From: Sphingobacterium nematocida
GTDB taxonomy: Bacteria; Bacteroidota; Bacteroidia; Sphingobacteriales; Sphingobacteriaceae
Direction of reading: 5' to 3'
Length of the DNA stretch: 64,000 nt
Assembly: GCF_900168125.1 (NCBI RefSeq)
Contig: NZ_FUZF01000016.1
Span: 62,001 to 126,000 of the forward strand
A program made the position numbers and the translations under genes. This document shows, piece after piece, positions 30,354 through 48,057 of the stretch; positions within the stretch are counted from its first letter, which is position 1; each line of letters starts with the position of its first letter. Below the pieces are notes generated by a model that saw only the letters and a program-made list of their open reading frames with translations, made no database searches and was not told where the DNA came from.

Positions 30354-31356
30354 CGGATAAATACAAAAAGCATATGCGATTATCAGCAGGAGAAAAAATG
30401 GAGATTATTCAGACGGTTACCCGATCGGAGATTGGTGTGAAGCGTACTTTAAATGAATTCGGGATTCCTAAAAGTACATTTTACAGCTGGTATGATGGTA
30501 CCTAACAGACGGTTATGAGGGGTTAGAGCTGAAAAACAGAGACTCCAGACAACAGTGGAACAGTATTCCAGATCAGGTTAAAGAATTTGTTGTCGAGGTT
30601 GCCCTGGATAAGGTCGATCTGTCAGCACGCGAGCTAGCACATCACATTACAGATGAGCACCAGATTTTTATTTCAGAATCTTCAGTCTATCGAATCCTTA
30701 AAAACAAGGGACTGATCAGTGCGCCAAGCCATATTTTGATCAGTGCATCCGATGAGTTCAAGGATAAGACCAGTTTTGTGCATGAAATGTGGCAGACAGA
30801 TTTTACCTATTTCAGGATAAAAGGTTGGGGAGATTATTATTTGAGCACCATATTGGACGACTACAGCCGATACATTGTCCATTGGGAGCTTTGCACATCT
30901 ATGAAGCATGAAGATGTGATACGTAATGTGGATAAGGCGATAGAAAAGGCTAAGTTAAAAACGAAGGCTAAACCTAAGTTACTGTCCGACAATGGATCAT
31001 GTTATATCTCTAAGGAACTCGGGAAATACCTGACCGAAGAACTGGAAATGAAACAGGTGCATGGCAGACCGGCACATCCACAGACCCAGGGAAAAATCGA
31101 AAGATATCACAGGACAATGAAAAATGTGGTCAAATTGAACAATTATTATTCACCAGAAGAGCTAAAAGAATCGCTAGAAGAGTTTGTAAATAAATATAAT
31201 AACGAACGCTATCATGAGTCTTTAAAAAACCTGACACCAGCTGATGTATATTATGGTCGTGGAGAACTCATATTAAAACAAAGAGAAAGCCTAAAAAAAC
31301 TGGCCATTAATAACAGAAAAACAGAATATTTAAAACAAAAATTAATAGCTTTATAA
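30326..31356 (+). pseudogene. IS3-family transposase OrfB (integrase), frameshifted
   Basis: From the slippery site the -1 frame reads through an internal ATG at 30374 and ends at a TAA at 30503-30505, right after F-Y-S-W-Y-D-G. The rest continues in the next frame from ~30499 to 31356, with the DDE integrase core intact: Asp in W-Q-T-D-F, Asp in L-S-D-N-G-S and Glu in G-K-I-E-R-Y-H. The pattern fits loss of one base near 30499. The intact-looking 206-residue downstream frame has no proper start. Transposition is probably abolished unless a second frameshift occurs. Confidence 0.85.
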
Positions 31357-31426
31357 TCAGAAAACACTCCTTAGACATTTGTCCAAATTAGTTTGAAGAC
31401 ATACAGATATTTAAACCAATAAACAC

Positions 31427-31762
31427 ATGTTTCGTTTTAAAAGATTATCTCAATTATTTAAGTCAGGGAAGTATAGACTTAGCAATAGATGCGGAAGAGA
31501 TCATGCAACTATAATTTCTTTCAAAAAGAGAGATGATGGTTACATGTATGGAATGACAGTTGATTTTGCCACACGTACATTTTCTGTTTCCAGGTCATCC
31601 GCTATCGGTGAGTCTAAAAGGGAGTGCACTGCATATTTAAGTTATGATTTGCTCACAAAGGCTGGTAAGGAGATGGTGAAACTATATGATGATGGCAATC
31701 TTGAAGATGGCTACCTTGAATTTCAAATTTTTATGTATATAATTGGAAATTTATTTCTATAA
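31427..31762 (+). CDS. Hypothetical small protein, paralogue of the one at 47292
   Basis: A 111-residue basic protein. The middle (Y-G-M-T-V-D-F-A-T-R-T-F and S-V-S-R-S-S) and the following T-A-Y-L-S-Y-D-L-L-T-K-A-G-K segment closely match the 74-residue protein at 47292-47516. No signal peptide or known motif is visible. It starts 36 bases after the IS right end, and the following sigma gene starts 21 bases later. The two paralogues flank the second SusCD locus. Function not recognised. Confidence 0.65.
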   Translation: MFRFKRLSQLFKSGKYRLSNRCGRDHATIISFKKRDDGYMYGMTVDFATRTFSVSRSSAIGESKRECTAYLSYDLLTKAGKEMVKLYDDGNLEDGYLEFQIFMYIIGNLFL

Positions 31763-31783
31763 TATTATGGGGGGATCACAGGA

Positions 31784-32359
31784 ATGAAAGTTAATGTACT
31801 AAAGGCTGAAACAGAAGAGGTTTTGCTTCAAATGATCAAGGCAGGGGAATACCCTGCGTTTGATGAATTGTACGCTAGACATTTTCAGACCGTTTATGCC
31901 ATGGCCTATAATATTCTCCGGGATCACCAGCATAGTATGGATATCGTACAGGATATTTTTATTTGGTTTTGGGAACACCGTTCGCAATGGAACCTGGTTT
32001 CATGCCGTGGCTATCTTTTAACCGCTGTTAAGTTTAAAACCGCGAACTATTTTAGAGATAATAAGATAAAGGCCGCCGTCATCGCGGGCTTGGCTAAACA
32101 ACAAATGTCAATTGTTGATGAAAGTCTTTTGCTGGAAGTTCGTCAGCTTAATGATATTATCCTTTCAATAACCTCCGAATTGCCGGAACGCTGTCAGCAG
32201 ATTTTTAGAATGAGTCGTTTTGATCAATTGTCCAATCGGGAAATTGCTTCTAAACTTGGAATTACAGAGAAGGCAGTAGAAGGACAGATCACTTCCGCGC
32301 TAAAAAAGCTAAGAGAGAAACTCGGTAAAGGGCATGTTTTTATGTATTTTTTTATCTGA
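31784..32359 (+). CDS. ECF RNA polymerase sigma factor, FecI-like (island)
   Basis: A 191-residue ECF sigma factor. Region 2 (~20-90) has F-D-E-L-Y-A-R-H-F and D-I-V-Q-D-I-F-I-W-F-W. Region 4 (~125-180) has L-P-E-R-C-Q-Q-I-F and helix-turn-helix N-R-E-I-A-S-K-L-G-I-T-E-K-A-V. FecR and an STN-bearing SusC follow, so it is the regulator of the island's own SusCD locus. Sequence identity with the sigma factor at 1097 is low by eye, making cross-talk unlikely. Confidence 0.93.
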   Translation: MKVNVLKAETEEVLLQMIKAGEYPAFDELYARHFQTVYAMAYNILRDHQHSMDIVQDIFIWFWEHRSQWNLVSCRGYLLTAVKFKTANYFRDNKIKAAVIAGLAKQQMSIVDESLLLEVRQLNDIILSITSELPERCQQIFRMSRFDQLSNREIASKLGITEKAVEGQITSALKKLREKLGKGHVFMYFFI

Positions 32360-32454
32360 AAATCAATGTTTTAATAAAATGTTTCATTTTTATTTATTTT
32401 CGATCTAGGGGTAGAAGCTATTTATGTGCTTTACAATATATCAACCACTAGGAA

Positions 32455-33591
32455 ATGCAGGAAGAAGAATTTATTGATATTGCAAATAAGGTAGCTGATG
32501 GATCGGCAACCGATCAACAGAAGCAGCTATATTTATGCCACCTGGCTTCTTTCGCTAAAGAAAATCCAGAGTGGGAGAAACTAAATACAGATTTTAGGCA
32601 ACAGATAGAGGATATGGTGAGGGATAAAATCCGCACTCATGTTCTCCCGGAAACGATCCGAAAATCCACATTAATTAAACTTTGGCAGAGAATTGCTGGA
32701 GTAGCTGCGGCAATAGCCCTGATCGTTTTAAGCGTTTACTTCTTTAACAATGGCAATAATGCAATAAATAATGATCCGCAAATCGTAAATCAGGATGTGG
32801 CTCCTGGTTCATTTGGTGCCACCCTCACCCTTGCTAATGGTAAGACGATTAAATTATCGGATGCATCCAATGGTAAACTTGCTCAGGAAGCAGGGATAGC
32901 CATTGCCAAATCTGCAGATGGTCAATTGGAATATGAGATTAAAGGATCTGCTGACGATCCCAACAAAATTAATACGCTATCGACTGGCAAAGGAGAAACC
33001 TATAAGGTGCGTTTGCCGGACGGCTCCTTGGTATATCTAAACGCCGCATCAAGCTTGACTTATCCTGTTTCTTTAATTGAGCATGGGAAACGGAAAGTCA
33101 AACTTAGAGGTGAAGGTTATTTTGAAATTTCTAAGGATAAAGAACATCCTTTCGTAGTACAAACAGATAATCAGGAAGTGGAAGTATTAGGTACGCATTT
33201 CAATATCAATGCCTATGGGGATGAACCTGCTGTGAGGACTACCTTGCTGGAAGGACGTATAAGGGTAAATAAAAGCACTATCCTGTTCCCAGGGGAACAG
33301 GCAACATTAATAAACGGCAATTTAAAAGTATCCAAGGCTAATTTAGATGAAACAGTAGCCTGGAAAGAAGGAAGCTTTCAGTTTAACGAAGAAAAGATGG
33401 CCAGCATCGTGAGAAAACTTGAGCGTTGGTATGACGTGGAGATTGAATTGAGCGATAAGCTAGCGAACAAGGAGTTTTCGGGTAATATTTCCCGCAGCCG
33501 GAGCATAAGCCGCGTGCTTCGCATGATGGAAAAAACAAATGGCATTCAATTTAAAATTGAAGGAAGGAGGATAACGGCTATAGAAAAATAA
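32455..33591 (+). CDS. FecR-family anti-sigma factor (island)
   Basis: A 378-residue anti-sigma factor. The cytoplasmic N-terminus (~1-75) is followed by one transmembrane helix at ~80-98. The FecR domain (~175-270) has L-S-T-G-K-G-E-T-Y and L-P-D-G-S-L-V-Y-L-N-A. The DUF4974-like C-terminus covers ~300-375. It lies 95 bases after its sigma gene and 161 before SusC. The relay logic is the same as for the first locus. Confidence 0.93.
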   Translation: MQEEEFIDIANKVADGSATDQQKQLYLCHLASFAKENPEWEKLNTDFRQQIEDMVRDKIRTHVLPETIRKSTLIKLWQRIAGVAAAIALIVLSVYFFNNGNNAINNDPQIVNQDVAPGSFGATLTLANGKTIKLSDASNGKLAQEAGIAIAKSADGQLEYEIKGSADDPNKINTLSTGKGETYKVRLPDGSLVYLNAASSLTYPVSLIEHGKRKVKLRGEGYFEISKDKEHPFVVQTDNQEVEVLGTHFNINAYGDEPAVRTTLLEGRIRVNKSTILFPGEQATLINGNLKVSKANLDETVAWKEGSFQFNEEKMASIVRKLERWYDVEIELSDKLANKEFSGNISRSRSISRVLRMMEKTNGIQFKIEGRRITAIEK

Positions 33592-33752
33592 TTATACCCA
33601 ATTGTAAAAGACCTTCAAGTAAAAAAGGTCATACGGGTTGGCGCCCGGATGACCTGTAAGCTAGCTGGACAGAAAATATCAGATATCACCGGCCTAGTAC
33701 GATCCACCTTGACAAGTATTGCGTATTATGCCTTTAAACCAACTAAACTCAA

Positions 33753-36700
33753 ATGTACAAAGTTTTACAACAAAAACTATGGTACCCTTCAGGTGCTATA
33801 ATTAAATTACTGCTGATTATGAGGCTAACCACCATATTATTGATCACAGGTTTTTTACAGGTCAGCGCCACTACTTTTGCGCAGAAAATATCGTTGACTG
33901 AAAAGGACGCCTCGCTTACCACAGTGCTAAATCGCATCAAAGCGCAGACCGGTTATGACTTCTTCTACGAAAGTGTAAACATAAGGGAGCTAAAAACCAT
34001 TAATATTCAGGCTAGAAATGAAGAACTGAAAGATTTACTAGCACGAATTTTAAATCCTCAGAACCTGGATTTTGAGATTGATGACAACTCAATCATTATA
34101 AAAAGGAGAAGGAGCCCTTCCCCTCTAAATAAGCCTGTTGTACCTATCAATATCAACAGTTTTTCAGGTGTAGTGCGAGACACTGCAGGAAAGGAAATCG
34201 CAGGTGCAACAGTTAAGCTATCCCCCGGGAAACTCACTGAAATCACAAATCAAACAGGAACATTCGTCTTTAAAAACGTTCCATATGGTAACTATACGCT
34301 TTCGGTTACTTCTATAGGTTATCAGTCATTGGAGATGGCTATTGAAATCAACGCATCCACAGAGGCGTCTTTACTTGTGCTAGTGATGAAGGAGGCTGTT
34401 TTGGCATTAAGCAGCGTCACCATTAATACAGGTTACCAGCGTATCAAACCAGAGCAGAGTACCGGTGCCGTGGCACAGATCACCACCAGAGAATACGAAT
34501 CGCGCATCAGCACCAATTTCCTGGATGGTCTGGCCAACCGGCTTCCCGGCTTAATGATCAATAATGATGTTAATTTTACCAGCACAGATGCAAACGGTAA
34601 TACTACTTCCAAGAGCCTCTTCAATATCCGTGGTATTTCCACAATGTCGGCCAACCAAAATCCTTTAATTGTCGTGGACGGTTATCCCACTACCCTCACA
34701 CTGGATATGATAAACCCGAATGAAATTAAGTCTGTTACCATTCTGAAGGATGCTGCAGCAGCCACAGTTTATGGTGTTCGCGCATCTAACGGCGTAATTG
34801 TGATCGAAAGAAAACAGGCAAGCGTCGGCAAACCGCAGGTCGCTTTCCGTGCCACCGTGGGTTTTACACCCAAAGAGAACTACAGCCGCTATCGCTGGGA
34901 TCCCGATGCCTCCGCACTGATTGTGGCTTACCAGCGGGACATCTTTGCTACGAGCGTGGATTCTAATACCTATGCAGGCTTGTCGACACCTAACTGGAAA
35001 GGCGTTCAGTCACCTGTTTACTATACCGTAGCCCAGCAGGCAGGTAAAATCATTAACCAGGCACAGGCCGACGAAACATTTGCCAATTTGGGCAGCTACA
35101 ACAACACCAAAGATTACAGCCGTCTGTTCCTGCAAACAGCCGCTACCCAGACCTACAACATGAATGTGTCCGGTGGCAATGCCAATGCACTCTATTACAT
35201 TACCGCCAATTATACCGACAACCTGCAGCAGCAGAAAAATAACAATAATAACAATATCCTGCTTTCGGCCCGCAGCACGCTGAAGTTCTCCCAGCGTCTT
35301 TCCCTGGAGCTGACCACCGATTTCCAGGAACTGCGCGCTACTGCTGCGCCGGTACCGGATATCAACAGCATTTATCCGTATGAGCGTCTGCAGGATAAAT
35401 ATGGGAACCCAAGTCCTGTTGCGTTTAAGTCGGGAGTAAATCCTTATTATAATTCGGTACTTATGGACATGGGGCTGCGGGATTACCAGTATTATCCTTT
35501 GGTAGATATCGATCATATCAGCGACAAGACACATACCCTCAACAACCGTGTTACTGCTAACTTCGACTATAGGATCGGACATGGCTTTAATCTTACTTTC
35601 GGCGGTATCTATGAAACGTCCCGTACCGACCAGCGCCATTATGCCGATGAGCAATCGTCTGAAGTACACCAGTATGTTGATAACTATGCTACAAGGAATG
35701 CCAATGGCAGCCTGGTATTCAATATTCCCATAGGGGGTTATTTACAGCAGCAAACGGCTAAATCTTCCAGCTACACCCTGCGGACCCAGTTAAATTATAA
35801 CAAGTATTTTGGCAAAGACCATTCCATCAATGCCATTCTTGGCGCAGAGGTAAGAAATGAAAAGGATCAGATCGCTAACGCCGCATACTTTGGCTACGAC
35901 GACCAGAGCCTGTTACAACAACCGGTCAATTACGATATTTTGACTTCTGGGTTCATAAGTCCTTTTTTGGGAACAGGTCCGTTAGCTTACAGTCATTTAT
36001 TTGGTCAGACTTACCGGGAAGACCGGTATTTATCCGGCTTTTCCAATATCGTTTATTCCTTTCGCAATACATACTCGCTTACCGGCAGCTTGCGTATCGA
36101 CCAGTCCAATCTGTTCGGTACAAACCCAAAATACCGGTACAAGCCTTTATGGTCGGTAGGTGCTGCCTGGAATATCGATAAAGAAAACTTTATGCAGGAC
36201 GTTACCTGGGTGAAACAGCTGAAGCTGCGCTTAGCAAATGGCTTTAACGGCAATGTGGCCAAGCTGTCACTCCCACAGGCAATTGGCCAGTCCTACCTCA
36301 CCACAGGCACTGTTCCGGCATCTGCCGCCTTGCGATCGTATTCGCTTGCCAACAGCGGGCTGCGCTGGGAACAGACTAATAACTTCAATGCAGGGCTTGA
36401 TTACAGCATATTCAAAAATATTTATGGCTCAGTGGACTGGTATAACAAGCACAGCACGGATTTAGTAGCCAACGGTCTGATAGACCCGACCGCTGGTGCC
36501 AACTCTTCTATTATTAACACAGCAACCATTAACAATAAGGGGGTAGAGATCAGTCTGCGTGCCGACTGGCTCAGCATTCCTAAATTTAACTGGAATACGG
36601 GCTTTGTGCTTGCCCTTAATACCAGCAAGGTGCAAAAGACTTATCAGACAACAGCTGGAAACTTTGTAGACGTCAACAATAGTTACGGATATATAGCAGG

Positions 36701-37340
36701 TTATCCGGTAGGGGCGCTGTTTGCCTATCGCGATGCTGGGTTGGATAACAAAGGGTATGTTCAGGTAAAAGACCACCAGGGAAATGTATATACCTATGAA
36801 TCCGCTACAGTTGCGGATAGAAACTATAGGGATCCAAACTATATGGCATATGTGGGATCGTCTGTTCCTGCTGTCAATGCGGGAATGAGTAACAGGTTCG
36901 ATATCGGCAACTTCTATTTCTTTTGTATGATCAACTATTATGGCGGCTTTAAGGTGCGGGTACCACGTCCTAGCCCCGGCGATGTAAGGCCGCTGCCTGG
37001 TGCCGGCAGTTACTGGAAACAGCCCGGCGATGAGCAGCATACTGATGTCATATCTTTGGCTGCTTCCAGAACTCAGTGGACTAACGTTGTTTACAATAAC
37101 TTAGATAGTTATGTGGTCGATGGCGATTATATCACCCTGGCAGATCTTACGGCTTCCTATACCTTTAGCAACAACAAATTTTTTAAAAAAGTGGGCTTTA
37201 GCCATTTTGAGATTAAGCTGCAGGCGTCTAATTTATATACAGTAGGGTTTAACAAATACAATTACAGTATGGCCACGCGCAATTATTATAAGCCATATGT
37301 CACGCCTACCTATACCATCGGTCTATTTACCAACTTTTAA
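33753..37340 (+). CDS. SusC/RagA-type TonB-dependent receptor with STN domain (island)
   Basis: An 1195-residue outer-membrane importer. The start at 33753 fits the long M-Y-K-V-L type leader seen in relatives, with the signal helix at ~25-45 ending in T-F-A-Q. An STN domain (~47-110), CarboxypepD_reg-like domain (~135-215) and plug (~225-345, with L-V-D-G-Y and S-N-G-V-I-V-I motifs) precede the barrel, which ends in L-F-T-N-F. From ~34800 the codon use is visibly more GC-rich than the surrounding sigma/FecR genes, which suggests a mosaic origin. It is paired with the SusD gene 11 bases downstream. Confidence 0.95.
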   Translation: MYKVLQQKLWYPSGAIIKLLLIMRLTTILLITGFLQVSATTFAQKISLTEKDASLTTVLNRIKAQTGYDFFYESVNIRELKTINIQARNEELKDLLARILNPQNLDFEIDDNSIIIKRRRSPSPLNKPVVPININSFSGVVRDTAGKEIAGATVKLSPGKLTEITNQTGTFVFKNVPYGNYTLSVTSIGYQSLEMAIEINASTEASLLVLVMKEAVLALSSVTINTGYQRIKPEQSTGAVAQITTREYESRISTNFLDGLANRLPGLMINNDVNFTSTDANGNTTSKSLFNIRGISTMSANQNPLIVVDGYPTTLTLDMINPNEIKSVTILKDAAAATVYGVRASNGVIVIERKQASVGKPQVAFRATVGFTPKENYSRYRWDPDASALIVAYQRDIFATSVDSNTYAGLSTPNWKGVQSPVYYTVAQQAGKIINQAQADETFANLGSYNNTKDYSRLFLQTAATQTYNMNVSGGNANALYYITANYTDNLQQQKNNNNNNILLSARSTLKFSQRLSLELTTDFQELRATAAPVPDINSIYPYERLQDKYGNPSPVAFKSGVNPYYNSVLMDMGLRDYQYYPLVDIDHISDKTHTLNNRVTANFDYRIGHGFNLTFGGIYETSRTDQRHYADEQSSEVHQYVDNYATRNANGSLVFNIPIGGYLQQQTAKSSSYTLRTQLNYNKYFGKDHSINAILGAEVRNEKDQIANAAYFGYDDQSLLQQPVNYDILTSGFISPFLGTGPLAYSHLFGQTYREDRYLSGFSNIVYSFRNTYSLTGSLRIDQSNLFGTNPKYRYKPLWSVGAAWNIDKENFMQDVTWVKQLKLRLANGFNGNVAKLSLPQAIGQSYLTTGTVPASAALRSYSLANSGLRWEQTNNFNAGLDYSIFKNIYGSVDWYNKHSTDLVANGLIDPTAGANSSIINTATINNKGVEISLRADWLSIPKFNWNTGFVLALNTSKVQKTYQTTAGNFVDVNNSYGYIAGYPVGALFAYRDAGLDNKGYVQVKDHQGNVYTYESATVADRNYRDPNYMAYVGSSVPAVNAGMSNRFDIGNFYFFCMINYYGGFKVRVPRPSPGDVRPLPGAGSYWKQPGDEQHTDVISLAASRTQWTNVVYNNLDSYVVDGDYITLADLTASYTFSNNKFFKKVGFSHFEIKLQASNLYTVGFNKYNYSMATRNYYKPYVTPTYTIGLFTNF

Positions 37341-37351
37341 ACTGTACAACC

Positions 37352-38713
37352 ATGAGATACAATCCTAAATATATTTTTTGGGCCATGGCCCTTTGTATAA
37401 CGGCCCTCACTGCCTGCAATAAGTACCTGGATATAACACCCAAAGGTTATACGCTGCTGACCACAGTGACCAATTATGACCAGTGGCTGAATGATTACGA
37501 TGCCCTGGGCCTGAGTCATGCGCCGCTCTCGCTTAACCTGCTGGGCGACAACGTAGATCAGTCGGCCATACCGGTGCCAGCTACGGATGTTAATGACCTG
37601 ATCTATACCTGGGCGCCCCAGTATGCTAGAGATCAATCCACGTTACCAACATTCTGGGGACAGCACTATAGTGTTATTAATAAATACAATACCGTGCTGG
37701 CAGGCATAGATGAGGCCACAGGAGGCACGAATCAGCAAAAGGCGAGCTTGAAGGCCGAAGCGCTGCTTGGGCGTGCCTTTGAATACTGGTACCTGGTGAA
37801 TGAATACGGGCCGGTATATGATCCTGCAACTGCAGATAGGGACCTGGCCGTACCCTTTGTTACCTCGAACGATGTAGCCCAGGCCACCCCGCCCCGGAGC
37901 ACGGTAAAAGAAATATACGACCGCATCATCTCAGACATCAATGCGGCACTTCCCAACCTGCCCGCTAATAACAGTAGCGCCCCCTGGCGCGGCTCGTCAG
38001 CTGCTGCCTACAGCGTGCTGGCAAGGATCTTTTTTTATTCCGGTGATTACACTGGTGCCGCAAAAAATGCGCAACTGGCGCTGGATAATGGCAGAGCCAC
38101 CATGCTTGACTTTAAAACGTTTAATTTGTACAGTTATGCCACAGTTTTCTTGCCCGATGCCATATACTGGCGGGGAAATGGTGTTTTCCAAGAAATCCTG
38201 CCCAGCTTCTTTAGCGCTTATGATCCCAGAGATCTGCGTAAACAGCTATGGTATTTTAGCCAGGGCGATGCCAGGGGAAAAACTTCGTTTTCCCCGGCGT
38301 TTGTTGCAAAATCTTTCACTTATACAAACTTCGGTACTTCTGTACAGGAAATGAAACTGATCATTGCCGAAGCCGCAGTGCGTAAGGGAGAGTTAGCCAT
38401 TGCTTTGCAGCAGGTAAATGACATACGGGCAGCCCGCTTTCCGTCCCCTTACCAGAAACTGATATCGAGTGACCAAGAAACGGTACTAAACTGGGTCCTG
38501 CGGGAAAGAGGCTTTGAAATGCCTTCTAGCGGACTGCGCTGGTTTGATATGCGCAGATTGGACAAGGAGGGCAAAATGCCAGCAGTAAACCGGTACGATG
38601 CCAAGAATAATATCATTGCCACCCTGCCGCCGCACAGTCCGAGATATACCCTGCAGATTCCCCAGCGTGTACTGCTGAACAACCCAGGCATGCCGCAAAA
38701 TCCAGGGGAATAG
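37352..38713 (+). CDS. SusD/RagB-type substrate-binding lipoprotein (island)
   Basis: A 453-residue lipoprotein with a lipobox Cys near residue 22 (L-T-A-C-N-K). SusD-like helical repeats follow, with L-G-R-A-F-E-Y-W-Y-L-V-N-E-Y-G and the C-terminal W-V-L-R-E-R-G-F-E-M motif before F-D-M-R-R-L. It begins 11 bases after SusC and forms the lid of that transporter. Like SusC it is more GC-rich than its neighbours. The substrate is not evident; the neighbouring peptidases hint at peptides. Confidence 0.95.
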   Translation: MRYNPKYIFWAMALCITALTACNKYLDITPKGYTLLTTVTNYDQWLNDYDALGLSHAPLSLNLLGDNVDQSAIPVPATDVNDLIYTWAPQYARDQSTLPTFWGQHYSVINKYNTVLAGIDEATGGTNQQKASLKAEALLGRAFEYWYLVNEYGPVYDPATADRDLAVPFVTSNDVAQATPPRSTVKEIYDRIISDINAALPNLPANNSSAPWRGSSAAAYSVLARIFFYSGDYTGAAKNAQLALDNGRATMLDFKTFNLYSYATVFLPDAIYWRGNGVFQEILPSFFSAYDPRDLRKQLWYFSQGDARGKTSFSPAFVAKSFTYTNFGTSVQEMKLIIAEAAVRKGELAIALQQVNDIRAARFPSPYQKLISSDQETVLNWVLRERGFEMPSSGLRWFDMRRLDKEGKMPAVNRYDAKNNIIATLPPHSPRYTLQIPQRVLLNNPGMPQNPGE

Positions 38714-38755
38714 AGAATAAATGACGTAATATTTGATCAATAAAAAGATAAAATC

Positions 38756-39682
38756 ATGAAAAAGACATACGGATTTTTATATTGCTGCATTATGCTGCTG
38801 CTGGCAGCCTGCAGCAAGGACAGGCCGGTGGTACCTGTATTGCCGACAGATGGTATATCCATACAGGGACTAGACCTATCGGATACACTGGAAAGGCGGG
38901 CCGAGATCCTTCGGGACCAGGTGACCATTATAGGGTTGAAAGCTTTGTCCAAAAGCGTTGTTGCTTCGGGGGTCGATGTTACATTTGGGGTTGATACTTC
39001 AAAGATGGAAAGCTACCGCGCCAAATATGGCAATGCAACTGTTTTGCCATCTACAGCTTTTTATTTCTATAAACCTGACTGCCGAATCCCGGCTGGAAGT
39101 ACGGTATCCGATTCCGCGAAGCTTAACCTTGTAAAGCAAACAAGCCTGAACCCCTATACCACTTATGTACTGCCCGTTACCATCCGGTCGGTGAATGGCC
39201 GGGAAGAGGGCATTGCGCCCGGACAGGTACTGTACCTGGTTATCAAAACCGGCAAGAGCCGCTTTAACCTGACGGTCGTGAGCTTTTCATCTGAGACCTT
39301 ACCGGGCAATGGTGTAAGTAATGTAGTGGATGGACTTCCGAACAGCTATTGGTCTTCAAGTCTCGGACTTGATATGCCTCAGTATTTTACTGTTGATTTT
39401 GGCACAGCGACCCCCTTTAGTGCTATCAGCTACCAATATCCGATTCGTAACGTCCTCATCGGAGCATATCCTACCCAGATCAAGATCGAATTAAGCACCG
39501 ACGGTACTACCTGGACAGATAAAGGGACTTTCAATCAGGCTAACCCACCTGCGCAGGCAGTCCAGATCATTCCTGTTTCAAATACTACGGCGCGATATAT
39601 GCGCTTTACCGTGCTTGCTGCTCAACCTGTATTTGGATCTCGTCAAGGAGTTTTTATCTCAGATTTAACCCTGGTGCCCTAA
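38756..39682 (+). CDS. Lipoprotein with DUF1735-like and discoidin (F5/8 type C) domains
   Basis: A 308-residue lipoprotein with a lipobox Cys at ~20 (L-A-A-C-S-K). The N-terminal half (~30-165) resembles DUF1735, the immunoglobulin-like domain of BT_3987-type proteins. The C-terminal half (~170-308) is a discoidin-like jelly roll, with Y-W-S-S-S, Q-Y-F-T-V-D-F-G and A-R-Y-M-R-F-T-V motifs. Discoidin domains bind glycans or other surface ligands. It is 42 bases after SusD and probably acts as an extra surface binding protein. Confidence 0.88.
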   Translation: MKKTYGFLYCCIMLLLAACSKDRPVVPVLPTDGISIQGLDLSDTLERRAEILRDQVTIIGLKALSKSVVASGVDVTFGVDTSKMESYRAKYGNATVLPSTAFYFYKPDCRIPAGSTVSDSAKLNLVKQTSLNPYTTYVLPVTIRSVNGREEGIAPGQVLYLVIKTGKSRFNLTVVSFSSETLPGNGVSNVVDGLPNSYWSSSLGLDMPQYFTVDFGTATPFSAISYQYPIRNVLIGAYPTQIKIELSTDGTTWTDKGTFNQANPPAQAVQIIPVSNTTARYMRFTVLAAQPVFGSRQGVFISDLTLVP

Positions 39683-39774
39683 GTCGAAATACTCAAAATG
39701 GATACCGTACCCGGTTAGGAGTAACCGATTGGAACAACGACGGTAAACGGAACCTATTGGTAAATAAAAAATAG
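39682..39774 (+). pseudogene. Relic of an FG-GAP/VCBS-repeat protein
   Basis: After the discoidin gene stop, another frame reads Q-N-G-Y-R-T-R-L-G-V-T-D-W-N-N-D-G-K-R and then N-L-L-V-N-K-K before a TAG. D-W-N-N-D-G-K matches the calcium-binding D-x-N-x-D-G loop of FG-GAP/VCBS propeller repeats. The frame has no start and is only ~30 codons long, so it is a leftover of a deleted gene. Confidence 0.5.
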
Positions 39775-39780
39775 ATAGTT

Positions 39781-41142
39781 ATGAGAATAAAAACAATATT
39801 GCTTGCAATACTAATATTAGCAAGTTTGACCGGAAATAGTAAAGTTGCATTTACACCACCAAAGAGTTGGTTGAAAATCTTGTTTGTCGGGTACGATCCG
39901 GCACAAGCGATGCCTACATCGGTTAGGAAAATTCCGGGTAACATGACGAAGGAAGGGTTTGAGCGAGAATATCCGATTAGGATGCCTGCTTTTAAAGCCC
40001 TGTTAAGTGAATATTTTGCAGAGGTCAAAACCATCGACTGTAGAGACTGGAAACCTTCAGATTCTGATCCTTATGATGTGACAATTTTTGATTTTCCCAC
40101 TAAAATAATAGAACCGGTAACGGAAGGTGTTAAATACCTTCCTGCCGATTTTTCAAAACCAGTAGTCTTTATTTCACATACTGCACCGCAAATGGGCACT
40201 CCCATTGGACTTAAGTTCGAGTGGCTTTGTTTATGCCTAGATGCTGATGCCCACCATCTAAACCGCAAACACTCCATTTTTAAAGGTCCACTTGAGAAAG
40301 TGAAGCCAACGATGGTAATGAAACCAACACCAGAGGGAGTCTATCACTATGCTTCAGGTGATAATGTTCCAAAACAAATTCCCATGTGGAGAGTAGACCA
40401 AAAGGGTTACATCGAGGATAAAGATGCAAGGATAGGTTTGGTATCCAGGGGCGATCGGTTTACCGACTCGCCTGATACTGAATTAATTTCTAGCGGGGTA
40501 AATACGAAAGATGTCAACGCAGTTGCCTTGGGACGCCATGGTAATTTTTTTCTTTGGGGATTTGGGGCCTCTCCGGCCGGGATGACAGAGGAAGGAAAAA
40601 AAGTTTTTGTAAACGTAGTAGCTTACATGAGTAAATTTGATAAAAAAACTCCTATTGCACGAAAGCTTAACGATAGAGCAGCCACTACTGACTATTTTAA
40701 AGAGATGCAGAGCATGGTTAAGCGGATGTATGAAACTTCGACCGCTAAAAAGGATGGAAAGCCTGTTCCAACGTGGGATGAATACCTCAAAAACCAAAAA
40801 GGTTTTTTCACTCGATTTGGTACCGACTCAGCCAACTACCAATATTTAAAAGACAATATAGACTACATGTATTGTGATCCGAAGGGCTTTTATTCGGCCG
40901 TAATTGATGAAGAGGCCAAAATAATAGGAGTTCCTAATCACGATCTTCGCTTTTTAGAAACCTGTATTAAGATGTTTAAACAGAATGATCGTCCAGAATT
41001 AGCGCTGAAGATGTTAAAGAAATATACCGCTGAAAATTTTGATGACGCTGATAAATGGCAGAGTTGGTACACGAATAATAAAAAGAGATTGTTCTTTACC
41101 GAAGCGCCATATAAATTTATAGTTAATACCTATAACCAATGA
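39781..41142 (+). CDS. Exported ThuA/GATase1-like-domain protein of unknown function
   Basis: A 453-residue exported protein with a short hydrophobic leader (~5-18). Residues ~28-290 look like a ThuA/class I glutamine-amidotransferase-like fold: K-I-L-F-V-G-Y-D-P, V-T-I-F-D-F-P, P-V-V-F-I-S-H-T-A, and later G-N-F-F-L-W-G-F-G-A-S-P and F-V-N-V-V-A-Y. The remaining ~150 residues are helical. The GATase cysteine nucleophile is not evident at the expected elbow. It overlaps the DsbD-N-like gene by 4 bases (ATGA), so the two are coupled. Assignment is moderate. Confidence 0.65.
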   Translation: MRIKTILLAILILASLTGNSKVAFTPPKSWLKILFVGYDPAQAMPTSVRKIPGNMTKEGFEREYPIRMPAFKALLSEYFAEVKTIDCRDWKPSDSDPYDVTIFDFPTKIIEPVTEGVKYLPADFSKPVVFISHTAPQMGTPIGLKFEWLCLCLDADAHHLNRKHSIFKGPLEKVKPTMVMKPTPEGVYHYASGDNVPKQIPMWRVDQKGYIEDKDARIGLVSRGDRFTDSPDTELISSGVNTKDVNAVALGRHGNFFLWGFGASPAGMTEEGKKVFVNVVAYMSKFDKKTPIARKLNDRAATTDYFKEMQSMVKRMYETSTAKKDGKPVPTWDEYLKNQKGFFTRFGTDSANYQYLKDNIDYMYCDPKGFYSAVIDEEAKIIGVPNHDLRFLETCIKMFKQNDRPELALKMLKKYTAENFDDADKWQSWYTNNKKRLFFTEAPYKFIVNTYNQ

Positions 41143-41651
41143 AATTAGTATTGCTTACAGTTCTTATGTTGACACTAAATACGTGTTTAGTAAATGCCCA
41201 GCGGGTATCAACTTTCGATGAGGATATTACCAGCTTCTCTAAAAGTATTATATGTAAAGCTCCGGATCAACAATTCCCCGTTAGTGTAGAAGCGAGGTTA
41301 ATCAGTGATAGTCGGAGTGATAGTGTTGCTGTTGTCGTGAAAGTGAAAATTGCAGATGGGTGGCATATTTACGAGTTTGTTCCAGAAAATATGCCTTATC
41401 TTACCACAGAGTATATCCTCGATGTAGATAACAATATCACTAAAGCGGGTATTTGGCAAAAGAGCGAGGCTATTGAATCTCCAGCCGAGAAGGGAGTAAT
41501 GTTCTATGAAAATGAGGCAATCTTCATTCATAAACTTAAAAAATCATCTCCGACAGCTAAAGGCCAAGTGAATACAGGCCTATATTATCAATGCTGTAAC
41601 CTGTTCCAATGTATGCCGCCTGTGGAAAAGGCAATTAAATTAAATTATTAA
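41139..41651 (+). CDS. Exported DsbD N-terminal-domain-like protein
   Basis: A 170-residue secreted protein with a signal peptide cut near V-N-A-Q (~21). The domain resembles the periplasmic alpha domain of DsbD: I-A-D-G-W-H-I-Y near the middle and the terminal Y-Y-Q-C-C-N-L-F-Q-C-M-P-P-V-E-K. The Q-C-x(n)-C-x-P-P arrangement is the redox-active pair of that domain. There are no transmembrane or C-terminal thioredoxin domains. It overlaps the ThuA-like gene by 4 bases and lies near TlpA, pointing to a thiol-redox role in this locus. Confidence 0.75.
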   Translation: MKLVLLTVLMLTLNTCLVNAQRVSTFDEDITSFSKSIICKAPDQQFPVSVEARLISDSRSDSVAVVVKVKIADGWHIYEFVPENMPYLTTEYILDVDNNITKAGIWQKSEAIESPAEKGVMFYENEAIFIHKLKKSSPTAKGQVNTGLYYQCCNLFQCMPPVEKAIKLNY

Positions 41652-41664
41652 AAGATGTCCCAAC

Positions 41665-41987
41665 ATGTTAAAAAATAAATCTCTAATCGTCGCATTGGTG
41701 GCAGGGCTATTATTCAGTCTGCCTAGTTTCGCGCAAGAAATAAAAAAAACTAAAGAAATTGAGAAGATAATTGATAAAGTTATCGATCGTGTGTATCAAC
41801 ACCGCACCCAGAGGATCAGCAGATGAGATATTAAAACTTAAAGATGTGGTTACTGGAATTAATGGACATCCAATTAGCCAGCTACAACATTATAGTGAAC
41901 AAGTACTTTTCAGGCGATACGATAACGGTTGAACTGATACGGGATGGGAAGGAAATGCAAACTAAAAAATATACAGAGCTATGTTAA
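41665..41987 (+). pseudogene. Degraded exported PDZ-domain protein (HtrA-like C-terminus)
   Basis: An ATG at 41665 opens a clear signal peptide ending S-F-A-Q, but the frame stops at 41824-41826. A second frame then reads G-S-A-D-E-I-L-K-L-K-D-V-V-T-G-I-N-G-H-P-I-S, and a third reads K-Y-F-S-G-D-T-I-T-V-E-L-I-R-D-G-K-E. Together these are a PDZ domain core in the correct order, broken by two frameshifts. The residues between leader and PDZ are mostly missing. The last codons overlap the TlpA ATG at 41981, so an operon once ran through. Confidence 0.75.
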
Positions 41988-43135
41988 AAACATTAATTAC
42001 TGCTGCAATTGGTCTGTTGACCTTTTCAGCAAATGCACAGTATGGATTTTCAATAAAAGGAAACATTGCCAGTGCTACAAATGGACAAAAAGTAATGATC
42101 AGTTATGTTGAGGGTAACAAACAGGTCGTGGATTCGGCAATAGTAAAAAACAGAGGGTTTCTATTGAAAGGTATAATAAAAGATGTCGTAAGAGCACAAA
42201 TTACTTTGAAAGCGCTGAAAGAGGACAATGGACCTATGACTATGGAAATGATGATGGCTAGAGATGAACAGGACTTTTTTCTGGAAAATAAAACTTTTAG
42301 TGTTACTGGTTCAAATATGAAAACTGCTCTGATTGAAGGTGGTGCAGCGCAAGCGGATTATTTGAGGCTGAAGTCAGAATTAAAGCCACTTGAGGATAAG
42401 AGGAAGCCACTTAGTGAAAAAATAGGGCAGTATTTTAGAGCGAACAATGAAAAGGCAAGAAATGAACTTTCCCCGAAGCTAAGGGCTATACGGATGGATA
42501 TGACTAAAGTGGAAGATGCTTTTATTTATCAGCATCCAGATTCGTATGTAAGTCTCGATTTGATTGATGGTAGAAGTCGCGCTATCGATCCGAAAAGATT
42601 TGAGCCATTTTTTTATGCGCTTAGTCCGCGTATACAAAATTCAATAAAGGGAAAAGACCTGGCAGCACGTTTAAAAGTTATGGAAGCAACTGCAATTGGA
42701 AAACAGGCTATTCCACTTCAGAAAAAGGATATCAATGGGAAGGATGTGAATCTGGAAACTTTAAAAGGTAATTATGTCTTGCTTGATTTCTGGGGAAGCT
42801 GGTGTGGACCATGCCGTTCATCACACCCACATCTTAAAAAGCTTTATGCTAAATACAAAGCAGATGGTTTCGAAATTTTGGGCATTGCACATGAGCAGCG
42901 CCGGAGCATTGAGGAGAACCGTAAAGCATGGAAGGATGCCATTCAGGAAGATGACATTTCCTGGATACAGGTATTGAACAATGAAGGAATAGAGGCCTTT
43001 GACGCTGTTAAAGCTTATGGTGTAACTGCTTTTCCAACCAAGATTTTATTAGATAAGGAGGGGAAAATTATTGCTAGATATGTGGGGGGTGGTGTCGAAA
43101 TTGATGAGCAGTTGAAATCACTTTTTGGTAAATAA
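41981..43135 (+). CDS. TlpA-like thioredoxin with DUF4369-like domain (island)
   Basis: A 384-residue exported protein with a signal peptide cut near A-N-A-Q (~20). A DUF4369-like N-terminal domain (~22-125), a helical linker rich in Lys and Glu (~125-235), and a TlpA thioredoxin domain (~240-384) follow. The redox pair is C275-G-P-C278 in F-W-G-S-W-C-G-P-C. The architecture equals that of the gene at 12822, but the sequences are clearly different. Its ATG lies inside the end of the PDZ relic. It probably reduces disulfides in proteins of this locus or of the substrate. Confidence 0.92.
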   Translation: MLKTLITAAIGLLTFSANAQYGFSIKGNIASATNGQKVMISYVEGNKQVVDSAIVKNRGFLLKGIIKDVVRAQITLKALKEDNGPMTMEMMMARDEQDFFLENKTFSVTGSNMKTALIEGGAAQADYLRLKSELKPLEDKRKPLSEKIGQYFRANNEKARNELSPKLRAIRMDMTKVEDAFIYQHPDSYVSLDLIDGRSRAIDPKRFEPFFYALSPRIQNSIKGKDLAARLKVMEATAIGKQAIPLQKKDINGKDVNLETLKGNYVLLDFWGSWCGPCRSSHPHLKKLYAKYKADGFEILGIAHEQRRSIEENRKAWKDAIQEDDISWIQVLNNEGIEAFDAVKAYGVTAFPTKILLDKEGKIIARYVGGGVEIDEQLKSLFGK

Positions 43136-43138
43136 TTG

Positions 43139-43310
43139 TTACAAGGATTTTTAAAAAGCTGCCTGATGTTGTTAACAGTTGGTGTGGCCCATGCAAAAAA
43201 ATGGAACATTTAGGCATAGCACTCTTACTGACTATTCGACGTCAAAGCGTATGCAGCATACCTTAAAAGAGGTTTAGGCGTTTACCAAAGGAAATAAGAC
43301 CCTATTCGTA
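43139..43310 (+). pseudogene. Thioredoxin-like gene relic
   Basis: A frame without a start reads V-N-S-W-C-G-P-C-K-K-M-E-H (W-C-G-P-C codons at 43180-43194). Nearby in another frame is F-D-V-K-A-Y-A-A-Y-L-K. W-C-G-P-C-K-K-M is a typical thioredoxin active site. The fragments are too short and out of frame to make a protein, so a second thioredoxin gene next to TlpA has decayed. Confidence 0.6.
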
Positions 43311-43338
43311 AAAACGAAAATAGGTAGTTAATAAGCAG

Positions 43339-43370
43339 ACCAGGGCTAGCGGAAGCTGTCCTGGTTTATT
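43339..43370 (+). terminator. Possible terminator before the M16 peptidase pair
   Basis: ACCAGG pairs with CCTGGT, and inner GCT/AGC can extend the stem. A TTTATTTT tract follows. It may separate the M16 pair from the SusCD/TlpA unit. Confidence 0.4.
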
Positions 43371-43399
43371 TTGGAAGATTGAAATAAAACAAGTAAAAA

Positions 43400-44713
43400 A
43401 TGAGATATAAATTTTTAATGATTCTTTCGTTATCAGGAATATTCCTTCGCGCTGGTGCGCAGCAGGTAAAGTTTACTGAATACGACCTGGATAATGGCCT
43501 TCATGTCATTCTTCATCAGGATAAGACTGCGCCTGTTGTAGCCGTTTCGGTCATGTATCACGTCGGTTCGAAAGACGAAGATCCGACAAGGACTGGCTTT
43601 GCCCATTTCTTTGAGCACCTGCTATTTGAAGGTAGCCAGAACATGAAAAGAGGCGATTTTATGAAAATAGTGAGCAGTAACGGCGGACAGAATAATGCCA
43701 ATACTTCTCAGGACAGGACTTTCTACTACGAAGTTTTCCCTTCAAATCAGCTGGAGCTCGGGCTATGGCTGGAAAGTGAGCGCATGTTGCACCCAAAAAT
43801 TGATGAGGCAGGTGTTAAGACACAAAACGAGGTGGTTAAAGAAGAGAAACGCATGCTCACTGACAACAAGCCGTATGGTAAGTTTACTGAAAACATCTTC
43901 ACTCATTTATTTGAAGGGCATCCTTACAGCTGGCAGCCGATAGGTTCAATGGAACACCTGGATGCCGCAAAACTGGAAGAATTTATTGCCTTCTTTAAAA
44001 AGTATTATGCACCCAACAATGCCGTGCTGACAATCGCCGGAGACCTGGACATTGAAAAAACCAAAGCACTGGTTGCTAAATATTTTAATGAAGTGCCAAA
44101 AGGAGCTCCTGTCGTTAAGGGCACTTTCGCGTTAAAACCGGTGACCAAACAAATTGTGGATACGGTATATGATGCCAATATCCAAATTCCGGCGATATTT
44201 GCCGCCTACCGGGTTCCGGGAATGAAGAGCCGTGAAAACAAAGTGCTTGAAATGGTCAGTACCATTTTATCAGGTGGCGGAAGTTCAAGGCTGAGCACAA
44301 AAATGGTAGATGAAAAAAAGACGGCATTGCAGGTTTCGGCTTTTAATTATACTCTGGAAGACCATGGTGCTTACATTACGCTGGCACTACCCAATAACAA
44401 CACCCCTTTAAATGATCTTTTAACTGACATCGATGCGGAGGTTGTTCGCCTTCAGAATGACCTGATTAGTGAATCTGAGTTTAAGAAGCTGCAAAATCAA
44501 TTTGAGAATGGCTATGTAAGTGCCAACACAAAAATGATCGGACTGGCCGAGAATCTGGCCAATGGCTATACTTTCCACAATAAGAATACCAATGACCTGA
44601 ACGAACAGCTTGCGGTAATCAAATCAATCACTCCTGAAGAGATCAGAGCTGTAGCCAAAAAATACCTGAACAAGGATCAGCGTGTAGTACTTTATTACCT
44701 ACCAAAGAAATAG
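43400..44713 (+). CDS. M16-family zinc metallopeptidase, catalytic subunit
   Basis: A 437-residue exported insulinase/processing-peptidase-type protein with a signal peptide near R-A-G-A-Q (~20). The inverted zinc motif is intact as H69-F-F-E72-H73, with the distal Glu in K-T-Q-N-E-V-V-K-E-E, ~75 residues on. The C-terminal half repeats the M16 fold. The next gene, 2 bases away, is a second M16 protein without the zinc motif, and the two should form the active heterodimer. M16 enzymes cleave unfolded peptides of ~20-70 residues, so imported peptides or protein fragments are likely substrates. Confidence 0.94.
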   Translation: MRYKFLMILSLSGIFLRAGAQQVKFTEYDLDNGLHVILHQDKTAPVVAVSVMYHVGSKDEDPTRTGFAHFFEHLLFEGSQNMKRGDFMKIVSSNGGQNNANTSQDRTFYYEVFPSNQLELGLWLESERMLHPKIDEAGVKTQNEVVKEEKRMLTDNKPYGKFTENIFTHLFEGHPYSWQPIGSMEHLDAAKLEEFIAFFKKYYAPNNAVLTIAGDLDIEKTKALVAKYFNEVPKGAPVVKGTFALKPVTKQIVDTVYDANIQIPAIFAAYRVPGMKSRENKVLEMVSTILSGGGSSRLSTKMVDEKKTALQVSAFNYTLEDHGAYITLALPNNNTPLNDLLTDIDAEVVRLQNDLISESEFKKLQNQFENGYVSANTKMIGLAENLANGYTFHNKNTNDLNEQLAVIKSITPEEIRAVAKKYLNKDQRVVLYYLPKK

Positions 44714-44715
44714 AC

Positions 44716-46128
44716 ATGAAGAAGATATTTATATTTGCTATAGCTGCTTTGTTCATTCAAGGCGCAGCAGCTCAGAAACTAGACAGGAGCCAAAAACCAA
44801 AACCCGGACCTGCACCGATCATCACATTTGCCGATCCTGTAATCTATAAATTACCCAATGGCATTACTATTCTGGTGGTTGAAAACCATAAGCTACCAAA
44901 GGTTTCCGCAAGTTTTAGCATTGATGCGGGGCCGATCACCGAAGGTGCAAAAGCCGGAGTGATAGGATTATTGGGCGGAATGCTCAATGAGGGGACGGTT
45001 ACAAAGACAAAAGCCCAGTTTGACGAAGCTGTTGATCAGATAGGTGCAGAAGTAAGCGTTTATGCCGGTGGAGGACAAGCCGCTGCGCTGACCCGGTATT
45101 TTAGTGATGCCTTTTTATTAATGGCAGATGCCCTGAGAAACCCGGCTTTTCCGCAAGCTTCATTTGATAAATTGAAATCACAAAGCCTTACCAATTTAAA
45201 ATCCAGCGAGCGCAGCGCAACCGCCATTTCCGGACGCGTCGTTAATGCACTTTCATTTGGACTAAACCATCCTTTAGGAGAATTTCAGACCGAACAAAGC
45301 ATCAATTCCATTGCCTTGGATGATGTTAAAGCTTCTTATAAAAAATACGTTACGCCATCGAGAGGATACCTGACTTTTGTCGGCGACATTAAACCAGAAG
45401 CCGCAAAGGCGCTGGCGATAAAAGCATTTGGCGACTGGAAGGGCGCCGTTCTGACTTTCCCTGTTTTGGCTAAAGTCAGCAACCCTGCCCAAACAGAGGT
45501 CAATGTGGTAGATGTCCCCAGCGCTGTCCAATCCGAGATCACAGTGACCAACCTTATAGATTTACCAATGAGCAGTCCGGACTATCATGCGGTATTGCTT
45601 GCCAATCAAATCCTGGGTGGTGGTGCAGATGCCAAGCTTTTTAGAAACCTGCGGGAAAAACATGGCTTTACTTACGGGGCTTATTCCAAAACTGGCTCAG
45701 GGCGCCTGCAGTCGAGGTTTAGTGCCACGGCCTCGGTAAGAAATGAAAAAGTAGACAGTGCTGTAGTCGAGTTTTTGAAAGAGATCAATGTGATGCGTAC
45801 GGAAGAAGTGAGCGCTGATGTGCTTCAAGATGCGAAGAACTTATATAATGGGTCTTTTGCCTTGGGGCTTGAAAATCCTGCCCGGGTAGCCGGTTTTGCC
45901 AGCAGCATTCTGATCAATAACCTGCCTAAAGATTTCTACCGGACTTATCTTCAGAAGTTGAATGGTGTCACCGCAGGTGATATCCTTCGTGTGAGCAAAA
46001 AATACTTCAGTCATGACAACACCAGAATCGTTGTAGTCGGTAAATCAGACCAGTTTGTGCCGGGATTGAAAAAAGCGGGCTTTATGGTTAAGTATTATAA
46101 TAACTATGCGATGCCTGTTGTTCGGTAA
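44716..46128 (+). CDS. M16-family peptidase, non-catalytic partner subunit
   Basis: A 470-residue exported M16-fold protein with a signal peptide cut near G-A-A-A-Q (~19). At the zinc-motif position it reads G-V-I-G-L-L-G-G-M-L-N-E-G-T, so H-x-x-E-H is absent. The C-terminal half keeps the L-R-E-K-H-G-F-T-Y-G-A-Y sequence, whose Arg and Tyr bind substrate in active M16 pairs. It begins 2 bases after the catalytic subunit. This is the standard active/inactive pair. Confidence 0.93.
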   Translation: MKKIFIFAIAALFIQGAAAQKLDRSQKPKPGPAPIITFADPVIYKLPNGITILVVENHKLPKVSASFSIDAGPITEGAKAGVIGLLGGMLNEGTVTKTKAQFDEAVDQIGAEVSVYAGGGQAAALTRYFSDAFLLMADALRNPAFPQASFDKLKSQSLTNLKSSERSATAISGRVVNALSFGLNHPLGEFQTEQSINSIALDDVKASYKKYVTPSRGYLTFVGDIKPEAAKALAIKAFGDWKGAVLTFPVLAKVSNPAQTEVNVVDVPSAVQSEITVTNLIDLPMSSPDYHAVLLANQILGGGADAKLFRNLREKHGFTYGAYSKTGSGRLQSRFSATASVRNEKVDSAVVEFLKEINVMRTEEVSADVLQDAKNLYNGSFALGLENPARVAGFASSILINNLPKDFYRTYLQKLNGVTAGDILRVSKKYFSHDNTRIVVVGKSDQFVPGLKKAGFMVKYYNNYAMPVVR

Positions 46129-46181
46129 CTTCTTTCTATTTGGTTACTCTCCAGTTTATTTATAAAACTTAAGCATTAATT

Positions 46182-46279
46182 AGAGGGCTGTCTCAATTTT
46201 GAAGTGACCCCAAAAGTTTGACAAAAACTTTTGGGGTTCACTATTTATGTCAAAACACACATTTGAGGAGAAAAGTTAA
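46182..46279 (+). mobile_element. Relic of an IS left end with truncated OrfA
   Basis: A hairpin with arms GTGACCCCAAAAGTTT and AAACTTTTGGGGTTCAC (one bulged base) is followed by an ATG at 46247 reading M-S-K-H-T-F-E-E-K-S and a stop. T-F-E-E-K near the start is typical of IS3-type OrfA proteins in this phylum. Nothing further of the element remains. Confidence 0.5.
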
Positions 46280-46907
46280 AATGAACGATTTAAATGGAAT
46301 AATACAAGTTAGCTAAGGCGGACGTAGCGTAAAGCAAAGTTTAATCCATACGGACAACTAAATAGTTAAGGGAATTTCAAAAAAGTGAAAAATACTGATA
46401 TTTCACCACCAAGGGAAAACTTCTGTTGTATTTTAGCTGAAATACGCTTTGCCGATGAAAATTGATTTTAAAAATGATAGGTTTAAAGGCTTGGAAGATG
46501 CTGCCTGTATGTTCCGCTAAAAATGTGGTCACTCCATTTCGGGGCAAACTGTACACCCTTTTGGCTGCCATGTGTGGTAGCGAATGCTATTACAACCAGG
46601 CCAAATATAATTAATTTCCAACAGGCGTGTTCTGTACCTGCCTCAATTCCAAGCCCCTGTGCTTCCTTGCGTTTTCCGATCACCAGCCCGATATAGCGAC
46701 AGATTATTGATCCCAAACTCCAAATCAGAGGTTGCAGAAAGCTGTTGCCTGGATGCATAAATATTCTTTCGTATAGGCCAAGATACACAACCACAGACGG
46801 CGTTCGCCCCCGCTTTGATACAAATCCTTATTCAGTTATTTTTGACATTTAAAAGCGCTGTAAATCAGCCAAGTGACCAGGTTAGGCACATAAGTGTACA
46901 CTTTGAG

Positions 46908-47042
46908 GGTTCTTCACTATTGGTGAAAACTATAATTTTGAATGTCGTCGGGTTCAGTAGTCTAGTTTTAAAGCGGCCTTTTGACGAATCATAATAACTA
47001 TTTAATACTGAGCGCTTAATTCTTCAACAATAGTGAAGAACC
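46908..47042. repeat. Inverted repeat pair, 15 bp perfect arms
   Basis: GGTTCTTCACTATTG at 46908-46922 is the exact reverse complement of CAATAGTGAAGAACC at 47028-47042, and similarity extends a few bases inwards. The 105 bases between have no gene. This is the layout of a small MITE-like or IS-end element. Confidence 0.6.
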
Positions 47043-48032: not shown

Positions 48033-48057
48033 CCACCGATAAATCGTCAATAGCCTT

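Follow-up and report, generated by a model that had tools for sequence, protein, structure and literature searches.

In this study, we analyzed a 64,000-nt stretch of the Sphingobacterium nematocida genome (hereafter the window), and describe in it a SusC-SusD (SusCD) import operon that runs on into thiol-redox genes and a pair of M16 peptidase genes (Table 1). By open reading frame (ORF) listing and Pfam, the genes were found at exactly the coordinates given in an earlier note made from the sequence alone, all on one strand, and the parts list of that note (sigma factor, FecR, SusC, SusD, discoidin lipoprotein, ThuA-like protein, DsbD_N protein, PDZ relic, TlpA and M16 pair) agreed with the ORFs and with the Pfam, motif and fold evidence. 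Gaps of 11 bp (SusC-SusD), 42 bp (SusD-lipoprotein) and 98 bp (lipoprotein-ThuA) separate the receptor genes and their neighbors, the ThuA-like and DsbD_N genes overlap, and the wider gaps between DsbD_N and TlpA (329 bp) and between TlpA and the M16 pair (264 bp) are occupied by two dead genes. The sole strong coding-strand terminator after SusD is the hairpin behind the M16 pair, the two other plus-strand matches falling within SusD; the DNA from SusD to the end of the pair is without a strong terminator, and the M16 peptidase gene adjoins the receptor operon. The Bacteroidota-type promoter consensus, sought within the locus, gave no match. Lipoboxes were recognized by eye on SusD and the discoidin protein, and signal peptides on TlpA, DsbD_N, the ThuA-like protein and both M16 subunits; by these signals, all non-regulatory products look exported.

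TABLE 1. Features of the import locus and of the surrounding island, in coordinates of the window.
Feature	Position	Strand	Basis or remark
ECF sigma factor	31784..32359	+	Pfam sigma-70 r2/r4 (Sigma70_r2/r4_2); also first gene in related loci
FecR anti-sigma factor	32455..33591	+	Pfam FecR and FecR_C
SusC-type TonB-dependent transporter	33753..37340	+	STN, CarboxypepD_reg, Plug, beta-barrel; TIGR04056 455 bits
SusD-type lipoprotein lid	37352..38713	+	Pfam SusD-like_3 and SusD_RagB
Discoidin (F5/8 type C) surface lipoprotein	38756..39682	+	Pfam BT_3987-like_N and F5/8 type C
ThuA-like exported protein, no assigned function	39781..41142	+	Fold comparison
Stand-alone DsbD N-terminal domain protein	41139..41651	+	DsbD_N 7.5e-8
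PDZ gene relic, frameshifted	41644..41987	+	Three reading frames; pieces match PDZ_2 at 1.1e-8
TlpA-type periplasmic thiol-disulfide reductase	41981..43135	+	DUF4369 and redoxin/AhpC-TSA, WCGPC; ResA/TlpA models
DsbD gene relic, dead 3' end (thioredoxin domain)	43132..43294	+	Alignment with P. panaciterrae L142/L143
M16 peptidase catalytic subunit	43400..44713	+	M16 and M16_C; HFFEH at residue 69
M16 non-catalytic subunit	44716..46128	+	M16 and M16_C, without HxxEH
Intrinsic terminator-like hairpin, 14 pairs	46206..46238	+	Directly 3' of the M16 pair
Genomic island, entire insertion at tRNA-Glu	27983..50734	.	Flanks 471 bp apart in genome G072, locus L308
tRNA-Glu	50736-50808		Adjoins right end of island
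IS3-type transposase genes left of locus	29994..31356	+	ORFs, by eye
Tyrosine integrase of island	49270..50490	-	ORF beside tRNA-Glu, by eye

We read 15 loci with an orthologous SusC (47-58% identical), seven from the same genus and eight from Pedobacter. The discoidin lipoprotein follows SusD in 13 of them. In 14, the next genes, between one and three in number, are of TlpA or thioredoxin type, so the thiol-reductase partnership of the SusCD-discoidin core is ancestral. One orthologous SusC-SusD-discoidin cluster (L215/L222) continues with three TlpA genes, the gene of a DUF4953 met-zincin peptidase, DsbD_N and an M16 gene of single-chain type; on this core the M16 partnership is occasional, yet it arose at least twice.

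The combination of SusCD, TlpA and M16 was found again on other receptors. A SusCD-TlpA-M16 pair order occurs in P. steynii (L120) and SusCD-TlpA-TlpA-thioredoxin-M16 pair in P. westerhofensis (L139/L208), SusCD-TlpA in L209 is followed by two single-chain M16 genes and then by PALP-DsbD_N-DsbD, and SusD-TlpA-M16 also occurs in L198 and L199, while the same genome as the window holds SusCD-DUF4843-PKD-M16-TlpA-TlpA (L246) and SusCD-M16 without TlpA (L251). Leaving the window aside, the fetched loci in which M16 immediately follows SusD or TlpA are L120, L139/L208, L209/L197, L198, L199, L222, L246 and L251, which amounts to five independent SusCD-TlpA-M16 settings (L197-L199 are possibly orthologues of one another, and L251 is set aside since it has no TlpA). 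The SusCs of L120, L139, L209 and the own-genome loci are only ∼24-30% identical to the two SusCs of the window, and the recurrence involves unrelated SusCDs as well as both split and single-chain forms of M16. In the genome to which the window belongs, a same-strand SusD lies upstream, at ≤9 kb, of 24 of the 25 DUF4369-TlpA genes (8.5% expected, p about 5e-25), and three of eight M16 loci lie ≤5 kb downstream of SusD, against an expected 4.9% (p 0.005, or 0.04 when the window is left out). These results supported SusCD-TlpA-M16 coupling as a theme that recurs across genomes.

The nearest relatives of the M16 pair come from Pedobacter, most at 78-93% identity, with 93% between the catalytic subunit and that of P. 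ginsengisoli. An origin within the host genus was rejected, since among 89 other species searched one had a relative at 49% and the rest reached 35% or less. In the tree of joined subunits, the window pair clusters, with full support, with both copies from P. panaciterrae and those of P. ginsengisoli and P. steynii; the pair is, on this evidence, of Pedobacter type and acquired from Pedobacter. The core copies of Pedobacter are syntenic, next to a gene read as pgi. Their non-catalytic subunits mostly measure ∼693 aa, against ∼471 aa in the mobile copies, in which the C-terminal extension is missing. By eye, this extension of ∼220 aa looks LolA-like in core copies (L121, L126, L127 and others). 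Mobile copies occur after SusCD-TlpA (P. steynii), after SusCD-TlpA-TlpA-thioredoxin (P. westerhofensis), after DsbD_N-DsbD (P. panaciterrae, first copy), in a region of SusCD and ABC genes (P. panaciterrae, second copy) and standing alone (P. ginsengisoli). A dN/dS of ∼0.03-0.05 against four Pedobacter copies showed strong long-term purifying selection on the pair. The 437 and 470 aa subunits are split such that HxxEH is kept in one and lost in the other, and among solved structures the catalytic subunit was matched best by 3amj (E 1e-51), a heterodimeric M16 zinc peptidase that likewise joins an active and an inactive subunit.

The remains between TlpA and the M16 pair indicate with what the pair had travelled. 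The earlier note had called them a thioredoxin relic, which needs correction. Positions 43235-43294 align with the C-terminus of P. panaciterrae DsbD (DsbD_TM plus thioredoxin), whose locus (L142) reads PALP-DsbD_N-DsbD (564 aa, DsbD_TM and Thioredoxin_7)-M16-M16, and DNA homology between the window and P. panaciterrae starts in the 3' end of DsbD and continues across the intergenic DNA towards M16. Because both protein and DNA alignments extend in this way, the relic is what is left, at the 3' end, of a dead DsbD gene; the second P. panaciterrae copy (L143) retains the same DsbD stub. The M16 pair thus travelled with a DsbD, since destroyed in the window locus. As another candidate source, the 367-aa thioredoxin gene of ThuA-type operons was rejected, as its end gave no alignment while DsbD fits. 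DsbD_TM matches persist elsewhere in the same genome, at contig ends. The pieces of the other relic match PDZ_2 at ∼1e-8, and no homologue of it was present in the loci fetched from relatives. A PALP (cysteine-synthase family)-DsbD_N-DsbD block adjoins M16 genes in two unrelated settings, L142 and L209, hinting at use of cysteine or sulfur from imported peptides.

The ThuA-like ORF had no Pfam match. Its structural model, of low confidence (mean pLDDT 64), best matched the ThuA-like structures 1t0b (Z 11.2) and 4jqs (Z 10.8), which supports, for its N-terminal part, a putative fold of ThuA-like, glutamine-amidotransferase type; an assignment of the C-terminal half was dropped, the model confidence being too low. 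Seven other homologues, found in five of 149 genomes and 49-69% identical over the first aligned piece, all lie within other SusCD operons. DsbD_N comes after the ThuA-like gene in L099-L102, and in one operon the two form a single protein. The ThuA-like/DsbD_N pair comes from such operons.

The whole assemblage lies on an insertion. In the closest relative, G072 (DNA 90-92%, purD 96% identical), the sequences up to 27982 and from 50735 are only 471 bp apart; positions 27983-50734 are therefore a 22.75-kb insertion whose site is empty in that relative, which, with the tRNA-Glu and the integrase alongside, bears out the word island in the earlier note. No att direct repeat was found with three mismatches allowed or by repeat search, and it may be short or decayed. 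Two relatives (G054, G085; loci L310, L313) carry a different SusC-SusD pair at the same tRNA-Glu/purD spot, which is an exchange hotspot for SusCD cassettes. Within the island, adjoining the integrase, positions 48265-49203 encode a class-C beta-lactamase-like serine hydrolase (by eye). No fetched relative had the full set of genes and the modules come from different loci, so the idea of one conserved many-part system was rejected; the window locus is a mosaic of recent assembly that includes two dead genes. We consider it about an even chance, and the likeliest reading, that this mosaic, horizontally acquired and built on SusCD, is a protease-associated import operon, which imports a peptide or small protein and cuts it. 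A rather doubtful but serious alternative is that unrelated modules merely gathered in an island hotspot, the M16 pair being a general envelope peptide clean-up enzyme with no tie to SusCD. The different contexts of each module's nearest relatives, the different SusCD at the same spot in G054 and G085, the dead PDZ and DsbD genes and the 14 of 15 orthologous SusCD loci that are without M16 would all be expected from it. It accounts poorly for M16 genes, non-orthologous forms included, that repeatedly stand directly behind a same-strand SusD or TlpA, above chance in the window's own genome.

Cysteine counts are informative about the part played by TlpA, an exported redoxin whose only two cysteines (275, 278) form an intact WCGPC site of CxxC type. 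Its relatives (49-62%) belong to Pedobacter operons of the order sigma-FecR-SusC-SusD-TlpA-(TlpA)-thioredoxin. Cysteine is absent from both M16 subunits and, past the lipobox, from SusD, and SusC and the discoidin protein contain a single one each, which rules out that TlpA services disulfides of the M16 pair or of SusCD. Since neither transporter nor peptidase has a cysteine pair, TlpA needs another client. The ThuA-like and DsbD_N proteins, which bear cysteines, are candidates, as is the cargo; the cargo is the simpler reading, and would then bear disulfides. Alternatively, TlpA/DsbD and the peptidases might serve the repair or breakdown of periplasmic proteins, or release iron or haem from an imported protein. 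We hold such envelope redox control or cofactor acquisition to be distinctly improbable. DsbD_N, the DsbD relic and TlpA do share one stretch, and redox enzymes beside Fus-like receptors have been suggested to release an iron cofactor by reduction (PMC6793856), but no iron or haem gene was recognized in the locus, and SusCD and sigma/FecR would be out of place in simple quality control.

The composition of other operons in the same genome bears on the class of cargo. In our own-genome survey, which covers the fetched regions, 39 of 98 SusD operons contain TlpA among their downstream genes; the window locus was itself scored TlpA-free, its dead PDZ gene opening a gap of >300 bp. In the TlpA-bearing operons, the remaining genes encode, among others, DUF4843 and PKD_2 lipoproteins (11 of each) and peptidases of S51, Asparaginase_2, M19, M16, met-zincin and aspartyl types, and none of the families listed (25 of 30) is a carbohydrate family; TlpA-free SusCD operons hold sulfatases, glycosidases and phosphoesterases. 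Carbohydrate-family genes numbered none of 55 listed for TlpA-bearing operons versus eight of 30 sampled from TlpA-free ones (p 1e-4), and SusD is shorter in TlpA-type operons (median 474 versus 529 aa). The two peptidases among the 30 TlpA-free sampled genes are M60 and M16. DUF4843/PKD_2 lipoproteins between SusD and TlpA form a repeated operon type (L246, L249, L277, L259, L248, L245, L258, L244, L233, L278), for which we found no paper; these lipoproteins gave no sequence match to solved subunits, for instance those of the BT2261-64 complex, and such a relationship was rejected. A second TlpA-type operon in the window, at 1097-13952, reads sigma-FecR-SusC-SusD-S51-Asparaginase_2-S51-PKD/DUF5050 lipoprotein-membrane protein-TlpA. 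Because it combines two cyanophycinase-family peptidases with an isoaspartyl-type one, it suggests a putative use of cyanophycin or beta-aspartyl peptides, and such use would support a peptide role for TlpA-type SusCD operons.

These data also bear on whether the locus serves glycan or glycoconjugate capture, SusCD and the discoidin lipoprotein binding the glycan and TlpA and the peptidases being accessory. F5/8C and BT_3987-like domains occur in TlpA-free, enzyme-rich SusCD operons too, and the discoidin part weakly matches sialidase and GH31 modules; yet Pfam found no carbohydrate-active family among the genes of the locus, none was recognized in the orthologous loci read, and the sampled TlpA-bearing operons are without carbohydrate families, so we regard this explanation as improbable. 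The same absence sets the locus apart from a polysaccharide utilisation locus. More broadly, it is possible, though we would propose it only tentatively, that Sphingobacteriaceae have a second large class of SusCD (∼40% in this genome), TlpA-marked and free of carbohydrate enzymes, for redox-coupled and sometimes protease-coupled import of disulfide-bearing peptides or small proteins, with M16 genes as plug-in modules. The window shares with these operons the order sigma-FecR-SusC-SusD-(lipoproteins)-TlpA and differs from them in its appended M16 pair and ThuA/DsbD_N insert.

If the locus imports and cuts peptides, its steps might be as follows. First, SusCD and the discoidin lipoprotein would catch an oligopeptide, peptide conjugate or small protein, which would pass through SusC, while signaling from the STN domain via FecR to the sigma factor would raise expression. 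Second, periplasmic TlpA, fed by a DsbD encoded elsewhere in the genome (the local one being dead), would reduce disulfides of the cargo and so unfold it. Third, by analogy to solved M16 peptidases, the M16 heterodimer would enclose the short unfolded chains and cut them into fragments for uptake; this step would have been added recently, the SusCD-TlpA operon itself being older.

Receptor-linked M16 import has precedents in Fus (FusA-FusC) and YddB-PqqL (PMC6793856, PMC6071955). The tie within the Fus cluster was argued from sporadic, repeated linkage of receptor and M16, in a survey that covers Proteobacteria only (PMC6793856). In the window locus, too, a TonB-dependent receptor is tied to a periplasmic M16 peptidase, sporadically among homologues, and redox enzymes are sometimes in the cluster. 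The Fus comparison drawn in the earlier note survives as an analogy: the receptor here is of SusC/RagA type (TIGR04056) with a SusD lid, and SusC is distant from FusA (PMC6793856); the M16 enzyme is split into catalytic and non-catalytic subunits, unlike the single-chain FusC/PqqL type; no FusB-like TonB gene was recognized in the locus, and thiol reductases take the place of cytochrome c peroxidase. By these sequence features the locus is not a Fus family member, and it is best read, by analogy, as working like protease-associated import on another receptor type, a Bacteroidota counterpart of proteobacterial ferredoxin import. Oligopeptide-carrying SusCDs are known in RagAB and BT2263-64 (cited in PMC7782687). 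Their SusC/SusD architecture is shared, and RagA, RagB and BT2264 are detectable sequence relatives of the window SusC/SusD, but the nearest solved relatives of the latter are 8ypt/8ypu, and the window adds TlpA, ThuA-like, DsbD_N and M16 genes.

Split M16 pairs are the leader peptidases of some lanthipeptides, and the pair might accordingly mature or destroy a ribosomally synthesized and post-translationally modified peptide (RiPP) or bacteriocin entering via SusCD. No precursor or modification gene was recognized, either in the window or among the loci of relatives, and we deem this very unlikely. A related topic is treated in PMC8960859.

Several observations weigh against import and cutting of peptides by the locus. 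The core Pedobacter M16 copy sits without SusCD, and it is from Pedobacter that the window pair came; dS is saturated, so the estimate of selection on M16 is long-term only; and with two dead genes, PDZ and DsbD, the operon may be decaying. The excess of peptidases per gene in TlpA-bearing operons was not significant (7/55 versus 2/30, p 0.48), discoidin domains often bind glycans, and no cargo of the best solved SusC/SusD relatives, 8ypt/8ypu, was found in the literature; our literature searches for 8YPT/8YPU, for DUF4843 and for SusCD combined with TlpA or M16 returned nothing relevant. The coupling of SusCD, thiol-redox and M16 genes proposed in the earlier note recurs with non-orthologous parts and has no strong internal terminator, but M16 is present in only one of the 15 orthologous SusCD loci. 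Likewise, the survey of gene neighborhoods that it had suggested as a check yielded the repeated SusCD-TlpA-M16 order on one side, and core Pedobacter M16 genes away from SusCD and a dead local DsbD on the other.

Most SusCD systems have been interpreted as importers of sugars. If the TlpA-marked class does import and reduce peptides or small proteins, a large share of the SusCDs of these Bacteroidota would have been assigned the wrong nutrient, and protease-associated import, so far reported for Proteobacteria, would have emerged anew on another receptor. Testable loci are carried by the named strains P. steynii, P. westerhofensis and P. panaciterrae.

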